64,000 nucleotides of DNA. Origin: Clostridia bacterium (GTDB taxonomy: Bacteria > Bacillota > Clostridia > Christensenellales > Borkfalkiaceae). Of this stretch, positions 27,619 through 63,396 are shown in pieces. Below the pieces are notes generated by a model. That model was given only the letters and a program-made list of their open reading frames with translations. It was not told the origin of the DNA and made no database searches. The stretch is taken from contig JAQYLE010000037.1 of the NCBI GenBank assembly GCA_028720205.1, positions 1 through 64,000 of the forward strand, read 5' to 3'. A program made the translations under genes and the position numbers. Positions within the stretch are counted from its first letter, which is position 1. Every line of letters starts with the position of its first letter.

Positions 27619-30600
27619 TTATCCTATCGGGGTGAGGTTGCCTTTATCATCGACGGAGAAGATCATTTCGGGTCTGCCGTCAACGATAATGCTTACGACG
27701 TTATCGGTCTGTTTCCACTCGGCATAAGTTAAAAACTCTTTTGTTTCCTCGCTTGTGTCGGGGTCGGTTGTTACGTTGAAGAGATAGATCTTACCGTTGT
27801 CATTGAACTGGTAGACGAACTTCCAGGAGGAATGGTCCTCGACGTAGGTGTAAACCGTTTCGCCTTCGATATAGACGGTAAGCTCGTTTGTACCGGGAAC
27901 AACCGAGAGAATCATTCCCTGTAATTCAACGGTGCCGTCGCCGAGTACGCACTCGCTTGTCGAGTTGTAGTCGTAATCTTCATCGTAGGGCTCGTATATA
28001 TCCGCATAGGATACGCCGTTTTTGGTGTAAATTTCAACCTTATAGCCCTGGAAGAAGTAAACCGTCGGCTCAACTCCGAGCATGGAGCCTCTGAAGCGGA
28101 CGAATGCTTTTTCATCCTCGTTTATGAAGTAGAGGTCGTCGTCAATATTGTAAATACCGTTTGCCTCATCGAAAATTTCGAAGGTATAGGTGCTTCCTCT
28201 ATATACGATATAGCCCATATCGTAAACTTGCGCCGCGAAGATTTCGCCCCAACACTCCATCGTGTATTCCTCGCTCTCGTAGAGTGAGAGGTCGGGTATG
28301 AGCATAAGCTCAAGCGTGTAGGTTGCGTCTTTGTAGGTAAGCGGTATCTTTACCTCGCCTGGCTTTGTAAAGTCGTATTCGGACACGTCGCCGACGGTAA
28401 CGTCATTAAAGTCTACCCTCTCGCTGTAAATCGGCAAATATGCGGAGAAATGTACGTACTCATAATAGTAGAAGTACATTTTTTCAATCTGCGACATAAC
28501 GTATTCGTAACTGCCGCAAATTGCCGTGTCGTCGCCGCCGCTGAACGACTGCAAAACGTCGCTGTCCGAGTAAATAATCAAGGATATTCTGTCGGAGGTA
28601 AGCTTGCCTCCGTATTCTACCCTGACGTCATACCAGCCGTTTTCCGACGAACTCATATCGAACTTTTCCGAGCCGAGATAGAACATATCCGACGTTAAGG
28701 GGACGTAGTAGTAGCCGCCGTCGTATGCTGAAACCTTTAAGAAATATCCGTCCAGAACCTTGTCTTTTGCGAGTATCTCACGTACGTTGCCGCTTTCTTT
28801 GGTGCAGACGGAGAAAACGGAAACGTCCTTTTCGGCTATCTTGAACTCGAAAGAGGTTATAGCGCCCTTGTAGGTTACGGTTATGGTGCCGGACTTGCCG
28901 TCCTCGCCCATGCTTGCGGTCCACATATCCGGGCCCAGCTGAACGTACTCCTCGGTGCCGTCATTCAGCTTTGCACATATATATAAATAGGTGGCGTCTA
29001 ATATCACGTTGCCTTCCGCGTCAACCTCGCACAGTATCGGCGTATCAAACGTAACGTATATATAAATTGCCGATAAGTTTTCGGGGTCGTAGACGTTTAT
29101 GCAAAGGTACGTGTCAAAGCCCTTTATCCTTGCGGTGACTTCATATGAGCCAACCGTCGTGTTATCAAATGGGTTTCCGCTGTTATAACAGTCGGGGTTG
29201 ATTATCGCATAGGGCGTTAAGGTAAGGTATTCCTCCGTTCCGTCGTTATACTGAACCTTGACCTTAAACGTGCCCTCGCCGAGTGCCATATATACGTTGC
29301 CGTCAACGCCCGATATGCTCCTCGGGTCAACGACCTCGACGGTAAAGGTTTCCGTGGCAAAGCCGTCCTTTGATTTGAGAGTAAAGGTATACTTGCCGAC
29401 GGTATCCTTGTCAAACGCGCCGTCGGTCATATCAAACGCGGAAAGCGCATCGGTATATCTTGTGGTATCGTCGGTATATTCTATTCTTATCTCGGGATAC
29501 TCGCCGAGGTTTACCTTGTCGTCGTAAGTCGATATCTTTCTTACGACCTTCCTGTTTACGTAGGTAAAGGAGAGGGCGTATTCCTCCTCGTCGTATGTGA
29601 ACGAGATGGTGTAGACCTTGTCGCCGTCTGCAAAGTCGTAGTCGGGGTTAAAGCCGCCGTCGTCCGTTACCGTCATGTATGAGAGGGATGTATAGCCCGA
29701 GGTGTATCCGCTGTTGGACACGAATTTGAATCTTATATCGCCAAGATCCGTAAGATAGCCCTTTTGATATACGGTATATTCGGGCACCGCTTCCTCGCTG
29801 TGAAGGTCAAAGGTTATCTCTACGTCCTTCGTGAAGTTGCGCATGGAGAGCGTAACGGTTTTCGTAACGGGGAATACGCCCGCCTTTTTAAGCTCCTGTA
29901 CCATATCGTAAAATGCGTCGGTATCTATATACGATATGATGCTATCCTCCGAGGTCGAGTCGTTCTCGTAAAGCACGGACATATAGAACATGTACAGATC
30001 GTATCGGTCTACAAGAAAGCTTCTTATGGGGGTAATGTCGGCAATCTTGTCAAACGCAGATCTCTCGGTCTTGTAGGCACAAGCCTTGCATTTCTGGTAC
30101 TCGTACCACTGACCGTTTTCCTTGACGTACTCTGTCGTCAGGTCGTGGTCCACATATTCTTCTACATAGGAGCATACCGTGCAGACAAAATAGTGCTCCG
30201 AGAAGTTGTATTCGGGCTCGGCAGACCATTTGTGCGCGGCGGGAATGGTTAAATCGTCTATTTCGTTGTAGTCAATATCGAAATATTTGCCCGCGCACGA
30301 TGCGTCGGAGCAGGTATAATAGCCCTTCATTCCGTTGGTTGTACAGGTTTCGGGTACTTTTGCGGTCCACGCACCGAAGGTATGATCCGAGGGAAGTTCC
30401 AAAACGGTTATCTCGTTATGATCTGCGTCAAAATACTTGCCGCAGACAGAGCATTGATAGTGGTCTTTCTTGCCACTTTCCTGTATAAGATTGCCGTAGA
30501 TGTGACCGGTTGTTTCAATTTTAAGTTCGTCGTCGGTCTTTTCCACGCCGTCAATAAAGTTTTTGTCGCAAACGGTACAATGCTCGTGTGCTAAAACTCC

Positions 30601-31551
30601 GTCGGTTGTACAGGTCTTTGCAACCTCGGCAACGTCTTCAAGCTCGTGACCTGCGGATATTTTAAGCTCGCTATCGGTCTTTTCTACACCGTCAATAAAG
30701 CACTTACCGCAAACGGTGCAACGCTCGTGCTCTATCACTCCGTCGGTCGTGCAGGTCTTCTCGGCTCCCGAAACGGTTACAAGACTGTGGCTTGCGGGTA
30801 TTTTAAGCTCGCCCGCGGTCTTTTCAACACCTTTTACGATATTTGAGCCGCAACCGTCACAATGCAGATGCGCGATAGCTCCGTCGGTCGTGCAGGTAGC
30901 GTCAAGTGCTTCAACCGTATAATAGTTGTGTCCGAGCGCGTCCGTTTTAAGCTCGTCGTCCGTTTCTTCCACACCTGCAATGAAGTTCTTACCGCAAACG
31001 CTGCAACGGTCGTGTGCAAGAACGCCGCCCGAGGTGCAGGTAGCGTCAACCTCGGCAATAAACTCAAGCGTATGATTTACGGGAGCTGTTTTAAGCTCGT
31101 TGTCGGTCTTTTCAACACCGCCTATGAAGTTTTTGCCGCAGACGGTACAATGGTCGTGCGCCGCCACTCCGTTAGTCGTGCAGGACACAACCTCGGCAAC
31201 AAACTCAAGCTTGTGGCTTGCGGGTATTTTTGCCTCAATTTCCGTGCCGCTTTGTGCAAAATCTTTTCCGCATCTTGCACAATGATAGTGCTCGGTGTAG
31301 CCGTCCTCGGTACAAGTCGGCTCTTTTGACGGGATAAGGGCTCCCAAATCGTGACCGAGAGCCGAAACCGTTTCCGTCTGAACGTCGTTGCATTTTGAGC
31401 AGGTGCGCGTTTTCTCACCCGCCTCGGTACAGGTAGCCTCTCTGGTTGTTTGCCACTCGGAATATGTATGCTTACAGCTACAAGAAGCGAGCAAAAGCAC
31501 GCACGTAAGCAATACAAAAGCGAGCGACGTGATAGCAAATTTTTTTTTCAA
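27619..31551 (-). CDS. Giant surface lipoprotein with tandem Cys/His repeats and Ig-like domains
   Basis: 1310 aa. Start TTG at 31551 with AGGAGG eight bases upstream. Signal peptide and lipobox (LLLASCSC). Residues about 27-490 hold roughly ten imperfect repeats of about 45 residues with the pattern H..., CTxxG, HxxCxxCGKxF and a linker such as VEKTDDELK. Repeats of the form ATCTEAGEKTRTCSKC are widespread in Clostridia surface proteins, with no settled function. From about residue 680 come two or three bacterial Ig-like domains (EIRIEYTDDTTRYTD ... TVGKYTFTL) and then acidic beta-rich sequence. No enzymatic motif was seen. Metal binding by the cysteines is a guess. Lower GC than the core genes. 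Confidence 0.85.
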   Translation of the reverse strand: MKKKFAITSLAFVLLTCVLLLASCSCKHTYSEWQTTREATCTEAGEKTRTCSKCNDVQTETVSALGHDLGALIPSKEPTCTEDGYTEHYHCARCGKDFAQSGTEIEAKIPASHKLEFVAEVVSCTTNGVAAHDHCTVCGKNFIGGVEKTDNELKTAPVNHTLEFIAEVDATCTSGGVLAHDRCSVCGKNFIAGVEETDDELKTDALGHNYYTVEALDATCTTDGAIAHLHCDGCGSNIVKGVEKTAGELKIPASHSLVTVSGAEKTCTTDGVIEHERCTVCGKCFIDGVEKTDSELKISAGHELEDVAEVAKTCTTDGVLAHEHCTVCDKNFIDGVEKTDDELKIETTGHIYGNLIQESGKKDHYQCSVCGKYFDADHNEITVLELPSDHTFGAWTAKVPETCTTNGMKGYYTCSDASCAGKYFDIDYNEIDDLTIPAAHKWSAEPEYNFSEHYFVCTVCSYVEEYVDHDLTTEYVKENGQWYEYQKCKACAYKTERSAFDKIADITPIRSFLVDRYDLYMFYMSVLYENDSTSEDSIISYIDTDAFYDMVQELKKAGVFPVTKTVTLSMRNFTKDVEITFDLHSEEAVPEYTVYQKGYLTDLGDIRFKFVSNSGYTSGYTSLSYMTVTDDGGFNPDYDFADGDKVYTISFTYDEEEYALSFTYVNRKVVRKISTYDDKVNLGEYPEIRIEYTDDTTRYTDALSAFDMTDGAFDKDTVGKYTFTLKSKDGFATETFTVEVVDPRSISGVDGNVYMALGEGTFKVKVQYNDGTEEYLTLTPYAIINPDCYNSGNPFDNTTVGSYEVTARIKGFDTYLCINVYDPENLSAIYIYVTFDTPILCEVDAEGNVILDATYLYICAKLNDGTEEYVQLGPDMWTASMGEDGKSGTITVTYKGAITSFEFKIAEKDVSVFSVCTKESGNVREILAKDKVLDGYFLKVSAYDGGYYYVPLTSDMFYLGSEKFDMSSSENGWYDVRVEYGGKLTSDRISLIIYSDSDVLQSFSGGDDTAICGSYEYVMSQIEKMYFYYYEYVHFSAYLPIYSERVDFNDVTVGDVSEYDFTKPGEVKIPLTYKDATYTLELMLIPDLSLYESEEYTMECWGEIFAAQVYDMGYIVYRGSTYTFEIFDEANGIYNIDDDLYFINEDEKAFVRFRGSMLGVEPTVYFFQGYKVEIYTKNGVSYADIYEPYDEDYDYNSTSECVLGDGTVELQGMILSVVPGTNELTVYIEGETVYTYVEDHSSWKFVYQFNDNGKIYLFNVTTDPDTSEETKEFLTYAEWKQTDNVVSIIVDGRPEMIFSVDDKGNLTPIG

Positions 31552-57496: not shown

Positions 57497-58306
57497 ATGG
57501 AACGAAAGACTGACGCGATAGTGCTCCGGGCGACGGAGTATAAAGACGCGGATAAAATTTTAACCCTTCTCACTCCCTTCGAAGGCAAGATGACGGCGGG
57601 AATAAAAGGCGTGAAAAAGGCGGGGGCAAAACTTGCTTTCGCCGCGCAACCGTTCGCGTTCTGCGAGTACGTATTAGCGGAAAAAAACGGCAGAAACACC
57701 GTGGTTTCCGCATATTTACACGACGGATTTTTCGCTCTTCGCACCGATATCGTGCGGTTTTACGCCGCCTGTTCCGTTACGGAATGTTGCGAAGCGCTCT
57801 GTGCGGAGGGAGAGGAAAGTCAGGGCTTGTTCGTAGCGGCGGCGGAAGCGTTACGCTCGCTTGCCTACGCGAAAGAGCGCGGGGAAACGTGCGGCGAGTC
57901 GTTGTGTTGTTTTCTGCTTACCGCGCTTTTCGAATCGGGATATATGATCGATTTGAACGGTTGCGGCGCGTGCGGCGAAGAAATTTTCGGTGCGCGGTGT
58001 TATTTCGATTTTTCCGCCGGGCGGTTTTTGTGCGGAAATTGCGGAGGAAAAATCGCGGAAAAGGAAATCGCGCGGGCAAGCGCGTGCACGTATCGTTTTT
58101 TACGCCGATGCGCGGGCGACGTAAGCGAAACGGGCGGAGAAGAGGAAACGGCGAAAAACGCAAAAGAGGCGGAAATTCGCGCGTTGCGGCTTTTAAAAGC
58201 ATATCTCGTTAAAAAGACGGAACGGGAATATCCCTGTTTTACCGAATTTTTCCGCCTGTACGAGGCGTCGGCGCGGGAAGAAAATGCCGTAACGGCGAAA
58301 AATTGA
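57497..58306 (+). CDS. recO: DNA repair protein RecO
   Basis: Helps RecR load RecA at gaps. N-terminal OB fold (TDAIVLRATEYKDADKILTL), helical middle, and a zinc-binding pair CGACGEEIF and FLCGNCGG near residues 155-180. 269 aa. The start is preceded by AAGGGAAAG. The stop overlaps an upstream in-frame start of the next gene by four bases. Confidence 0.93.
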   Translation: MERKTDAIVLRATEYKDADKILTLLTPFEGKMTAGIKGVKKAGAKLAFAAQPFAFCEYVLAEKNGRNTVVSAYLHDGFFALRTDIVRFYAACSVTECCEALCAEGEESQGLFVAAAEALRSLAYAKERGETCGESLCCFLLTALFESGYMIDLNGCGACGEEIFGARCYFDFSAGRFLCGNCGGKIAEKEIARASACTYRFLRRCAGDVSETGGEEETAKNAKEAEIRALRLLKAYLVKKTEREYPCFTEFFRLYEASAREENAVTAKN

Positions 58307-58383
58307 ACAAACGAATAAAAAAGCGCGCGGCGGCGCGCGGAAAAGATTCCGCCGAAAATATACGTAATAAAAGGAAACGGTGT

Positions 58384-60297
58384 ATGGAACAGGAAACAAT
58401 ACGGCAAAAACAAGAAAAAAAGCAGACGGTAAAAGCGGGCGTTACGCGCGCCGCAAAGGCGAAAAGGCAAAAGGAAATATTGCGTTCGTTGCTTAAAAAC
58501 AGGGCGTATAAATGGAACGAACTTTTAGACGAAGCGGTGAAAGCGTACGTTGAAAAATTCGGCGACGAGCCGATAGATATTCCCGACCTGAAAGGAAAAT
58601 TCGGTTCCAATTTCTCGCTGCTGGAAGAAGCGGGCGAAGCGGCGTTCGATAAGGCTACCAATCTTTGTTCGCTGGTCGAACCGTCGCAAAGCGCGTTGCA
58701 AAGCGCGTCGCAGAATGCGGCGCCGCAGGAAGAGGATACGACGACGCAAGCAAAAACCGCCCCGAAAAAAACGAAGAAAAACACGGCGGATTCCGCCGCG
58801 ACGCGGCAGACGAAAGCAACAAAACGCGTCGCGGAAAACAAAGAGACGGACAGAATCAGCGAAAGGATCAGCGCGGAGGAAGAAAAGCGATCGGCGATAG
58901 AAACCGCTTTGAAAAAAGCCGTGGAAAAAGCGGCGGCAAAAAAATCGGAAAAACCGCAGATACCGGAAGAAACGCAACAAACTGAAAAATCGCAGAAAAC
59001 GGAAGAAGCGGAGCGAGAAACAGCGGAAAGCGCCGCGAAAAAAGAAGGCGCTTTTAAAACGAGCGAGAAAAAAGACGAGAAAAAAGATGAGAAAAAAACG
59101 CCCGCGAAGCGCGGCAGAAAATCCGTAAAAAAAGCCGATTCCGTTTCGGCGCAGGAGAGCCCCGCGCCCGTTCAGAACGCCACGGAAAAAGTCGGAACAG
59201 TTCAGAAAGAAAAAGAAGCGGAGCGACAGGAGAAAACGGAACAACCGGAAAAAAAGGTTGCGAAAAACGAATTGTTATTAACGGAATTCGCGTTTTTGGG
59301 CAACTCTTCCAAACGCGCGGAAACAAAGACGGCGGAAAATATAAGCGCCGCGCCCGTTGCGGCCGTCGCGCCTTCCGCGCTCGTCGTTCCCGTTACGGCG
59401 GCCGCAGCCGCTGCAAATGCCGCAGCCGCGGCGACGGAACAAAAGACTGACGCCGTGGAAAAGACGGTTAGCGGAGCAGCGGAAAACGTAGGGGACAGAG
59501 GCAAATATAACGCCGTCGAAAAGAAAGACGAGGCGGATATGGGCGCGGCGAAAGAGGAAAATGCCGCGGAAAACAGCACTGCGCGTATCCAAAGCGCTTC
59601 TATCGATAAAAATCAGGCGAAAAACGTGCGGAATACGCAAAGCAGGAGCGCGCTGAACGCACAGTCCGCACCGAGCGCGCGGAGCAGATTGACGCGAACG
59701 AGCGGAACTAACGCGGCGGGCGGGCGCGTAAACGAGCGATACGCCGTTCAGACCGCCGACGAAAAACTGAAAGAGGAGTTTTTGCGTCGGCTGCGTTCGA
59801 TGAGCGGCGAATATTTCGAATACTATGCGGTGTATCTGTTGGAGCGGTATTCTTTAAAAAACGGCAGAAGATTGGAAAGTCTGCGCATAACGGGCGGCAA
59901 AAACGACGGCGGAATAGACGGCGAGATCGAACTGACCGATCGTTTCGGCTTCCGTGAAACCATCTACATACAGGCGAAGAATTGGGATCCGACAAAAGGA
60001 GTGGCCGAAAAATGGATGATCGGGGAAACGCTGATTCAGCAGTTTGTAGGCGCGGCAACCTGCCGCCAATCGAAGGACGGCAAACGCAACAGCCGCGGTA
60101 TTTTTATGACGACTTCTTCTTTCACCAAAGAGGCGAAGGAAATTTTAGCCGTTTTGGGCGAAAAGTTTATCGGCTACGACGGCGACGACGTATACGAAAC
60201 GGCAAAGGAATGTTCGTTCGGATTGATTCGGGTAAACGGCGTTTGGCAACTCGACGAAAAACTGCTTTCCGGCGATAAGGCGTTTTTTAATATGTAA
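58384..60297 (+). CDS. Mrr-like restriction endonuclease-fold protein with long charged linker
   Basis: 637 aa. Residues about 25-105 form a small helical domain (KEILRSLLKNRAYKWNELLD ... IPDLKGKFGSNFSLLEEA). Residues about 110-455 are extremely rich in Lys, Glu and Ala and probably disordered. The C-terminal 180 residues are a PD-(D/E)XK domain of the Mrr type: GKNDGGIDGEIEL, YIQAKNWDP, IQQFVGAATC and SRGIFMTTSSFTKEA. ATG at 58384 after AAAAGGAAA. Mrr proteins cut modified DNA or act in DNA quality control. Placed right after recO and with its stop in a tandem repeat. Substrate unknown. Confidence 0.85.
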   Translation: MEQETIRQKQEKKQTVKAGVTRAAKAKRQKEILRSLLKNRAYKWNELLDEAVKAYVEKFGDEPIDIPDLKGKFGSNFSLLEEAGEAAFDKATNLCSLVEPSQSALQSASQNAAPQEEDTTTQAKTAPKKTKKNTADSAATRQTKATKRVAENKETDRISERISAEEEKRSAIETALKKAVEKAAAKKSEKPQIPEETQQTEKSQKTEEAERETAESAAKKEGAFKTSEKKDEKKDEKKTPAKRGRKSVKKADSVSAQESPAPVQNATEKVGTVQKEKEAERQEKTEQPEKKVAKNELLLTEFAFLGNSSKRAETKTAENISAAPVAAVAPSALVVPVTAAAAAANAAAAATEQKTDAVEKTVSGAAENVGDRGKYNAVEKKDEADMGAAKEENAAENSTARIQSASIDKNQAKNVRNTQSRSALNAQSAPSARSRLTRTSGTNAAGGRVNERYAVQTADEKLKEEFLRRLRSMSGEYFEYYAVYLLERYSLKNGRRLESLRITGGKNDGGIDGEIELTDRFGFRETIYIQAKNWDPTKGVAEKWMIGETLIQQFVGAATCRQSKDGKRNSRGIFMTTSSFTKEAKEILAVLGEKFIGYDGDDVYETAKECSFGLIRVNGVWQLDEKLLSGDKAFFNM

Positions 60298-60538: not shown

Positions 60539-60744
60539 AATATTCGGCTGAAAAATAACGGCGGTTTTTTCGCGCGGTTTTTTATTGCAACATTAGCAAA
60601 TACCGCTATTTGCAATACCGTCGTGCCGTTTGCGCATATGCGTACACGTCCGGCGACATATTTCCGGCGGGCGTAACTTTGTTTTCAACAGCGTTTTAAA
60701 AGTTTTACTATCAATAAAAAATTCATTTGGAGGAAGAAACACTT

Positions 60745-63396
60745 ATGGCTAAAAAGTATTGTTATCTGTTTACCGAAGGCAACGCGAAAATGCGCGAGCT
60801 TCTCGGCGGCAAGGGCGCAAACCTTGCGGAAATGACCAATATCGGTCTGCCCGTGCCCCAAGGCTTTACCATTTCCACGGAGGCATGCACGCAATATTAC
60901 GAGGACGGTAAGCAGATTAATCCCGAAATTCAGGCCGAGATTCTGGAATACATCGACAAAATGGAAAAAATCTGCGGCAAGAAATTCGGCGACAAAGAAA
61001 ATCCCCTTCTGGTTTCCGTGCGTTCGGGCGCAAGAGCCTCTATGCCCGGTATGATGGATACCATTTTAAACCTCGGCTTAAACGAAGAAGTGGTGAACGT
61101 CATCGCGGCGAAATCGGGAAATCCCCGTTGGGCGTGGGACTGCTACCGCAGATTTATTCAGATGTTCTCCGACGTGGTTATGGAGGTAGGCAAGAAATAT
61201 TTTGAAAAACTCATCGACGAGATGAAAGAGAAAAAGGGCGTTACGCAGGACGTGGAACTTGACGCCGACGATTTAAAGGAACTTGCCAACCAATTCAAAG
61301 CCGAATACAAAAAACAACTCGGCAAAGATTTCCCTTCCGACCCGAAAGAACAACTCTTCGAAGCGATCAAAGCCGTGTTCCGTTCGTGGGACAATCCCCG
61401 CGCAAACGTATACCGTATGGACCACGATATTCCGTACAGTTGGGGTACCGCGGTCAACGTGCAGATGATGGCGTTCGGCAACATGGGCGATAACTGCGGC
61501 ACGGGCGTTGCCTTCACGCGTAACCCCGCCACCGGCGAAAAAGGACTGATGGGCGAATTTTTAACCAACGCGCAGGGCGAGGACGTGGTTGCCGGCGTAC
61601 GTACGCCTATGCCTATCGCTAAAATGGCGGAAGTGTTCCCCAACGTGTACAAGCAGTTCCAGGAAGTTTGCAAAATTCTCGAAAACCATTACAAAGATAT
61701 GCAGGATATGGAATTCACCGTGGAAAACGAGAAGTTGTATATGCTGCAAACCCGTAACGGCAAGCGCACCGCCGCCGCCGCAATTAAAATCGCATGCGAT
61801 TTAATCGACGAGGGCATGATCACCGAACAGGAGGCGCTGATGCAGATCGACGCGAAATCGCTGGATATGCTTCTGCACCCCACGTTCGACGCGAAAGATC
61901 TGAAAGCCGCCGATAAGACGGACGTGATCGGCAAAGGTATCGCCGCTTCTCCCGGCGCGGCTGCGGGCAGCATCGTATTCACTGCCGAGGACGCCGTGAA
62001 AGAGGGTAAGAACAAGAAGAAAGTTATTCTGGTACGCCTTGAAACTTCACCAGAAGATATCGAAGGCATGAAGTACGCGCAGGGCATTTTAACGGTGCGC
62101 GGCGGTCAGACCTCCCACGCGGCGGTAGTCGCCCGCGGTATGGGTACGTGCTGCGTTTCCGGTTGCGGCGACATCAAGATGCACGAAGATGAAAAGTATT
62201 TCGAACTTGCCGGCAAGGTATACCGCGAAGGCGACGAAATTTCGCTGGACGGCTCTACCGGCAACATTTACGGCAGACTGATCAAAACCGTTCCCGCCGA
62301 CCCGAACAGCGGATACTTCGGGCGCATTATGGAACTTGCCGATAAATACAAGGCTATGGGCGTTCGCACCAACGCGGATACGCCTAAGGACGCGAAACAG
62401 GCGGCGGCGTTCGGCGCGCAGGGCATCGGGCTTTGCCGTACCGAGCATATGTTCTTCGATCCGGACAGAATCGGCGCGTTCCGCGAAATGATCTGCTCCG
62501 ATACGGTGGAAGAAAGAGAGGCGGCGCTTGCGAAGATCGAGCCGATGCAACAGGCGGATTTCGAAGGCTTGTTCGAGGCGCTGGGCGGCTATCCCGTAAC
62601 CATTCGTTTCCTCGATCCCCCGCTGCACGAGTTTGTGCCTACCGAAGAGGCGGATATCGAAGCGCTCGCCAAGGCGAAGAACAAGAGCGTGAAACAGATT
62701 AAAGAAATCATCGATTCGCTGCACGAATTCAACCCGATGATGGGGCACCGCGGCTGCCGCTTGTGCGTGACTTATCCCGAAATCGCCGTTATGCAGACGA
62801 AAGCCGTGATTAAAGCCGCGCTTGCCGTAAAGGAAAGACACGCGGATTGGAACATCGTTCCCGAAATAATGATTCCGCTTACCGGCGAAGTAAAAGAAAT
62901 GAAGTTCGTGAAAGACGTTGTCGTAAAAACGGCGGACGAACTGATCGCTGCGGCGAAGTCCGATTTGAAATACGAAGTGGGTACGATGATTGAAATTCCC
63001 CGCGCGGCGCTTACGGCTGACGAGATTGCCAAAGAGGCGGAATTCTTCTGCTTCGGTACCAACGATTTAACGCAGATGACGTTCGGCTTCTCCCGCGACG
63101 ACGCCGGCAAGTTCTTGCCCGCGTACTATCAGAACAAGATTTACGAATCCGATCCGTTTGCGCGCCTCGATACCGTGGGCGTGGGCAAACTGATGAAGAT
63201 GGCGGTGGAACTCGGCAGACAGACGCGTCCCGGAATGTCGTGCGGAATCTGCGGCGAACACGGCGGCGATCCTTCTTCGGTGGAGTTCTGCCACGAAATC
63301 GGACTCACGTATGTTTCCTGCTCGCCGTACCGCGTGCCCATCGCGCGCCTTGCCGCCGCACAGGCGAATATCCGTAATCCGAGGGCGACGAAATAA
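60745..63396 (+). CDS. ppdK: Pyruvate, phosphate dikinase
   Basis: Interconverts pyruvate, ATP and Pi with PEP, AMP and PPi; cytoplasmic. 883 aa. N-terminal nucleotide-binding domain (LLGGKGANLAEMTNIGLPVP, SVRSGARASMPGMMDTILNL), the phospho-carrier His in GGQTSHAAVVARG near residue 450, and a C-terminal PEP-binding barrel with the catalytic Cys in MSCGICGEHGG. Start ATG 60745 after GGAGGA. No ppdK regulatory protein (RP) is seen nearby. A terminator follows. Confidence 0.97.
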   Translation: MAKKYCYLFTEGNAKMRELLGGKGANLAEMTNIGLPVPQGFTISTEACTQYYEDGKQINPEIQAEILEYIDKMEKICGKKFGDKENPLLVSVRSGARASMPGMMDTILNLGLNEEVVNVIAAKSGNPRWAWDCYRRFIQMFSDVVMEVGKKYFEKLIDEMKEKKGVTQDVELDADDLKELANQFKAEYKKQLGKDFPSDPKEQLFEAIKAVFRSWDNPRANVYRMDHDIPYSWGTAVNVQMMAFGNMGDNCGTGVAFTRNPATGEKGLMGEFLTNAQGEDVVAGVRTPMPIAKMAEVFPNVYKQFQEVCKILENHYKDMQDMEFTVENEKLYMLQTRNGKRTAAAAIKIACDLIDEGMITEQEALMQIDAKSLDMLLHPTFDAKDLKAADKTDVIGKGIAASPGAAAGSIVFTAEDAVKEGKNKKKVILVRLETSPEDIEGMKYAQGILTVRGGQTSHAAVVARGMGTCCVSGCGDIKMHEDEKYFELAGKVYREGDEISLDGSTGNIYGRLIKTVPADPNSGYFGRIMELADKYKAMGVRTNADTPKDAKQAAAFGAQGIGLCRTEHMFFDPDRIGAFREMICSDTVEEREAALAKIEPMQQADFEGLFEALGGYPVTIRFLDPPLHEFVPTEEADIEALAKAKNKSVKQIKEIIDSLHEFNPMMGHRGCRLCVTYPEIAVMQTKAVIKAALAVKERHADWNIVPEIMIPLTGEVKEMKFVKDVVVKTADELIAAAKSDLKYEVGTMIEIPRAALTADEIAKEAEFFCFGTNDLTQMTFGFSRDDAGKFLPAYYQNKIYESDPFARLDTVGVGKLMKMAVELGRQTRPGMSCGICGEHGGDPSSVEFCHEIGLTYVSCSPYRVPIARLAAAQANIRNPRATK

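Follow-up and report, generated by a model that had tools for sequence, protein, structure and literature searches.

A winged-helix Mrr-type nuclease with a disordered linker is kept at one site beside recO in a genus of Christensenellales

An Mrr-type nuclease gene was found to be a genus-level core gene in one genus of Christensenellales, where it occupies a single fixed site. It was present in 55/57 genomes of the genus, including 12/12 of the high-quality ones. We propose that an Mrr nuclease was domesticated here: instead of acting as a mobile restriction system, it would survey or repair DNA as a tethered nuclease recruited by a partner. We judge this reading to have about an even chance of being right. 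No description of this protein was found in the open-access literature.

Gene and domain organization

The open reading frame at 58384-60297 on the plus strand of the window (the whole 64,000-nucleotide stretch of DNA analysed) starts with ATG and encodes 637 amino acids, in the order winged helix, disordered linker and Mrr-type nuclease. A preliminary description had placed an Mrr-like nuclease gene with a linker of about 350 residues after recO at these positions, and the reading frame, Pfam, PADLOC and AlphaFold2 (AF2) all agree with it, the linker being 359 residues long. The features are as follows.

58384..60297, plus strand: whole gene, 637 aa (open reading frame and translation)
58369..58376 (approximate), plus strand: ribosome-binding-like AAAGGAAA 5' of the ATG (read from the sequence)
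57497..58306, plus strand: recO, fixed upstream neighbor (Pfam RecO_N/RecO_C; synteny)
60727..63396, plus strand: ppdK (pyruvate phosphate dikinase), usual downstream neighbor (Pfam; synteny)
58444..58674, plus strand: predicted winged-helix domain, residues 21-97 (AF2; Foldseek; profile match)
58675..59751, plus strand: disordered K/E/A-rich linker, residues 98-456, 359 aa (pLDDT mostly <55; composition)
59107..59121, plus strand: AT-hook-like KRGRK, residues 242-246 (sequence; relatives' linkers)
59266..59304, plus strand: conserved hydrophobic linker motif NELLLTEFAFLGN, residues 295-307 (a motif of this or the DMSFLFG type in 40/40)
59752..60294, plus strand: PD-(D/E)XK Mrr-type nuclease domain, residues 457-637 (Pfam Mrr_cat; Foldseek; identity)
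59812..59826, plus strand: YFEYY with candidate catalytic E479 (invariant in 28 sequences)
59908..59922, plus strand: GGIDG, residues 509-513, with catalytic D512 (invariant in 28 sequences)
59968..59979, plus strand: IQAK, residues 529-532, with Q530 and K532 of the (D/E/Q)xK motif (invariant in 28 sequences)
60262..60294, plus strand: genus-specific C-terminal tail LLSGxKAFFxM (KAFF-type ending in 39/39 complete copies)

The nuclease domain was recognized by several methods. Pfam Mrr_cat (PF04471) matched residues 470-588 (E 9e-15; 55.2 bits against a cut-off of 21), and PADLOC mREase_IV matched the protein with an E-value of 5e-18. AF2 modelled residues ~457-637 as a confident domain, with blocks mostly at pLDDT 74-95, and the best Foldseek match of this domain in the PDB was MspJI (E 6e-7), with a weaker match to AspBHI and a further one to AF1548. 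Together, AF2 and Foldseek predict a PD-(D/E)XK fold for the C-terminal domain, the fold on which the preliminary description depended and to which the Pfam match also points. Searching PDB sequences with profiles of the nuclease and of the winged helix yielded no usable match. The active site (E479/D512/Q530/K532) is intact and all four residues are invariant among 28 homologues; the GGIDG...QAK core was thus correctly read in the earlier work. Glutamate at the E479 position is invariant in ordinary Mrr relatives as well. Across the genus, the nuclease domain is 63-84% identical. A second, weak Mrr_cat match was seen on contig C17 of the same genome (L066 6082-7524, minus strand), in an AAA ATPase-like protein of 480 aa with a C-terminal nuclease-like domain. 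Its gene adjoins integrase-like and mobilisation-like reading frames, as judged by eye from the translations, and is unrelated to the recO-side nuclease.

Structure prediction of both ends of the protein, which had been suggested as a check, gave a confident winged helix at the N-terminus as well as the confident nuclease. In the AF2 model the N-terminal domain consists of helices 22-39, 44-59 and 66-82 and strands 86-89 and 94-97 (block pLDDT 91-97), and its top Foldseek matches were winged helices (cullin WHB, LmrR, DP) with weak E-values. The domain had been called small and helical; small it is, but with its beta hairpin it is predicted to be more than helical. By AF2 and Foldseek, then, a predicted winged helix is fused to the nuclease, and the same fold reads m6A in some enzymes. 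By hhalign (probability 89, E 2e-6), the domain is homologous to the first of the two N-terminal domains in the order's ordinary wH-wH-Mrr proteins, and no match to Pfam Mrr_N was obtained among the 25 N-terminal domains searched. The winged-helix profile recovered only the window's own copy from the order sample. Since the window's genome was the sole representative of its genus there, this is a negative result for the other genera and carries no information on spread within the genus. The wing at residues 90-97 (window 58651-58674) reads KATNLCSL in the window and its closest relative, as opposed to DGGMYAL in most of the genus, which agrees with the early-branching position of this pair described below.

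Distribution and inheritance

Mrr matches outside the genus were sporadic, occurring in 20/247 other genomes of the order, 13/390 of the class sample and 26/398 of the phylum sample (about 3-8%). The scattered distribution typical of type IV enzymes was not seen within the genus, where the gene sits at one locus. Mrr frames in the order, class and phylum samples were mostly 270-370 aa, with a longest of 454 aa; ordinary Mrr enzymes there are ~300-370 aa, so the layout is indeed unlike the usual enzyme of about 300 aa, as had been claimed. In the family sample, close matches were confined to the one genus, bar one likely contaminant, and the Mrr proteins of other genera were all ordinary ones, about 270-340 aa long and low in identity. 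The exception, a copy in a genome of another genus (G034), was rejected as contamination: it lies on a small contig together with a genus-like recO that is additional to G034's own, and the genome is 6% contaminated. One close relative carries a name, Christensenella sp. UBA7597 (NCBI lineage Christensenellales).

In at least 33 genomes of the genus, a single contig carries recO and, directly 3' of it, the nuclease, as a rule followed by ppdK. No case contradicts this arrangement; in the remaining loci read, the contig ends or breaks there. The recO-mrr synteny that the preliminary description proposed comparing therefore holds among relatives, and its placement of the gene outside a defence island stands. 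Eleven sister genera have ppdK immediately after recO, and none of the sister-genus loci read had a nuclease between the two. Upstream in the window lie PhoH, a 7TMR-HD protein, YbeY, Era and RecO. The neighborhood had been described as a housekeeping repair/ribosome operon; its fixed, housekeeping character and vertical inheritance are borne out, but downstream ppdK is metabolic. Adjacency to recO is no proof of a functional link to the nuclease. Elsewhere in the window (27622-31551, minus strand), a 1310-aa protein has only a weak bacterial Ig-like (Big_3) match and is probably a surface protein.

One genome of the genus, G137, has an empty site, with recO followed after about 200 bp by ppdK. 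A four-gene tree, made in one pass and rooted on a single distant relative, places G137 inside the genus with modest support (79); the earliest branch is that of the window and its close relative. Gene loss is the simpler reading of this nested position, and G137 most likely lost the nuclease gene, which is therefore dispensable there. In genome G177 no recO was found, so the recO-ppdK site was not judged there. The genomes of the genus are mostly fragmented, and several are well below 90% complete.

Inheritance looks largely vertical from the sequence comparisons. Pairwise distances of the nuclease correlate with those of RecO (r = 0.89) and less with those of Era (r 0.53). The mean difference is 0.255 in the nuclease compared to 0.352 in RecO, which makes the nuclease the more conserved of the two. 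Close pairs gave a dN/dS of about 0.04-0.09 in the nuclease, 0.05-0.26 in the winged helix and about 0.17-0.37 in the linker; dS is near saturation in several pairs, making these values rough. They indicate that the nuclease is under strong purifying selection. No relative of the nuclease was found in viral contigs or phage records, and a phage or mobile origin of the present gene was rejected on this basis, the plasmid matches being distant ordinary Mrr proteins (30-40% identity among the rows listed).

A close counterpart in the order is found in the wH-wH-Mrr proteins of other Christensenellales (L061, L175 and L177 among them). These have a homologous winged helix and nuclease, the latter 32-36% identical to the domain here, but they are sporadic, about 340-350 aa long, have two N-terminal domains and mostly lack a linker. 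The likely history, as the sequences suggest, is that a protein of this kind was gained at the base of the genus and that its tether grew afterward. One of these proteins, L178 (454 aa), comes from a different family within the order and bears its own N-terminal extension of roughly 100 residues, K/E-rich and disordered-looking; the disordered additions of Mrr proteins may thus have more than one origin.

Linker, motif and tail

Nearly the whole stretch between the two domains has a pLDDT below 55 in the AF2 model, which was built from 26 orthologues, a shallow alignment. The linker of the window is 45% K+E+A and contains no tryptophan and five aromatic residues. Its length differed between relatives, as had been suspected, with extremes of 74 and 547 aa, and some species have a portion of the disorder N-terminal to the winged helix. 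Linker sequence and length change fast, with 33-68% identity in close pairs. The AT-hook-like KRGRK occurs in about half of the linkers, with PKKRGRKPK present one to three times in relatives. A proline-rich block (QPLPPAPLQPIAPVAPITPEVAPEPIPE; IAP motif) is conserved in the linkers of only about half of the genus (L039, L043, L181 and others).

Between the winged helix and the nuclease, each copy carries a short hydrophobic motif or two, even where the linker is only 74 aa. The first form is [FMVYH]D[ML][ST]x[LFI][LFM] (for instance MDMSFLFG, FDMTLLFG or YDLSALF) and the second is [TP][ED]F[AVS]FLG; in narrower terms, [FMV]D[ML][ST]x[LF][LF]G and/or [TP][ED]FxFLG. The window carries the second form, LLLTEFAFLGN (residues 297-307). 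The motif was found in 27/27 linkers and in none of 500 composition-preserving shuffles, a test that excludes compositional chance and is no independent discovery test, as the patterns were written after viewing the same sequences. When genomes were added, the count became 40/40, with one residue class widened by H and I to take in two new sequences. The DNA pattern of the DMSFLFG type had exactly one match per genome in six genomes of the genus, all at the nuclease gene. Neither the motif nor the KAFF-type tail was found in the ordinary Mrr relatives compared. The preliminary description of a low-complexity K/E/A linker therefore captured its disorder and composition but missed the conserved hydrophobic motif, and its reading of a purely diffusing or tethered nuclease overlooked the same element. 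The linker is not featureless, and the motif likely docks a putative partner. By eye it resembles sliding-clamp peptides, which usually begin with Gln, but it does not have this first residue, so we keep the resemblance as a lead only.

Proposed function and alternative explanations

The domestication that we propose would have started when the ancestor of the genus gained a stand-alone winged-helix/Mrr nuclease between recO and ppdK, and the gene would since have been retained as a core gene. The winged helix and the basic, AT-hook-like tether would hold the enzyme on DNA. The tether motif, and perhaps the KAFF tail too, would dock the nuclease onto a putative partner or onto the enzyme itself, and docking may limit cutting to certain chromosomal or incoming DNA structures or modifications. 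In support are the near-complete presence at one locus, the empty sister sites, the vertical inheritance, the dN/dS values, the motif in every copy, the absence of phage relatives and the co-occurring C5 methyltransferases described below. Against it are the empty site in G137, a nearest family that is type IV restriction by both sequence and fold and, weakly, the undocked motif in AF2. Since fixation and purifying selection also fit a restriction enzyme, and G137 lacks the gene, the chromosomal DNA-quality role suggested earlier remains only a candidate.

In a narrower version, the motif and/or the KAFF tail would recruit the domesticated nuclease to a replication or recombination machine, such as the sliding clamp, RecO/RecR, SSB or one like them. 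A former restriction enzyme would then have become a new DNA repair nuclease particular to this lineage; we consider this unlikely. EndoMS/NucS is a PD-(D/E)XK repair nuclease that uses a C-terminal sliding-clamp peptide; it has a weak fold match to the domain here (Foldseek E 2e-3) and belongs to a different subfamily. Bacterial NucS typically stands in place of MutS-MutL. A role of this type, replacing mismatch repair, was rejected because MutL was found in the window's own genome and most of the genus genomes searched, a test based on MutL alone.

A serious rival, which we hold to be possible if short of probable, is an ordinary type IV restriction enzyme stably kept in the genus, whose winged helix senses a modified base and whose long linker allows cutting at a distance. 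The PADLOC match supports this, and the closest solved folds, MspJI and AspBHI, belong to modification-dependent (m5C-dependent type IIM/IV) enzymes. The reader of these two is an SRA-like domain (PMC3874153), in contrast to the winged helix and disordered linker here. Winged-helix fusion nucleases are known that belong to type IV and depend on m6A; their linker determines how far away the cut falls and can also inhibit the nuclease (PMC11037411). Among them, DpnI and HhiV4I share the fusion and are mostly stand-alone without an adjacent methyltransferase, but domain order, nuclease subtype and linker differ from those here. Escherichia coli Mrr, a type IV enzyme with an Mrr_N winged helix and Mrr_cat, is shorter and has no long disordered linker. 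As here, it has an N-terminal winged helix and a C-terminal Mrr nuclease (PMC3874153) with a D...QxK-class motif, and at high pressure the host's own chromosome can be among its targets (PMC3874153), but the gene here is fixed at one locus across the genus. Retention and purifying selection would also suit a stable innate restriction enzyme. The near-universal presence at a single locus, compared to the sporadic spread in the order, class and phylum, argues against this rival, and a conserved motif and tail would be needless for simple distance cutting, for which the linker length is also not conserved.

Methyltransferases bear on both readings. The nuclease gene was said to lack a methyltransferase partner; none adjoins it, which also suits a type IV enzyme, but the same genome has a C5 DNA methyltransferase on another contig. 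Such enzymes co-occur with the nuclease in 18/57 genomes of the genus, the window's own included. In these genomes an enzyme responding broadly to m5C would damage the cell that makes it, which counts against the type IV reading and makes broad m5C-dependent cutting unlikely, judging by gene content; narrow specificity or m6A dependence may still apply.

Another explanation, compatible with either domestication or type IV restriction and in our estimate somewhat unlikely, is that the motif is an intramolecular latch that binds the nuclease or a dimer interface and silences the enzyme until it is on DNA, with no need of an outside partner. The constant position of the motif between the two domains, even in the shortest linker, fits a latch, and linker autoinhibition was reported in other modification-dependent enzymes (PMC11037411). 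AF2, however, leaves the motif disordered and undocked on the nuclease (block pLDDT 38-42), which is weak evidence given the 26-sequence alignment. Finally, that the linker is a neutral low-complexity expansion in a merely divergent Mrr protein is very unlikely: its fast change in sequence and length would fit, but all 40 linkers share a motif that shuffles lack, and the MutL linkers of six genus genomes have no K/E/A repeats, so a simple lineage-wide drift to such linkers was rejected.

Significance

Domestication of defence nucleases into core functions has often been proposed; to our knowledge, few documented cases combine a fixed locus, a relative with an empty site and near-complete retention in a genus. 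The Mrr domain, usual in scattered anti-phage enzymes, here belongs to a near-universal, vertically inherited gene of one gut-bacterial genus. The conserved tether motif makes the question of function directly testable through what the motif binds. Were its target a replication or repair protein, the enzyme would represent a new design for a repair nuclease; a latch, in turn, would reveal the means by which cells that methylate their own DNA keep a resident Mrr enzyme safe.
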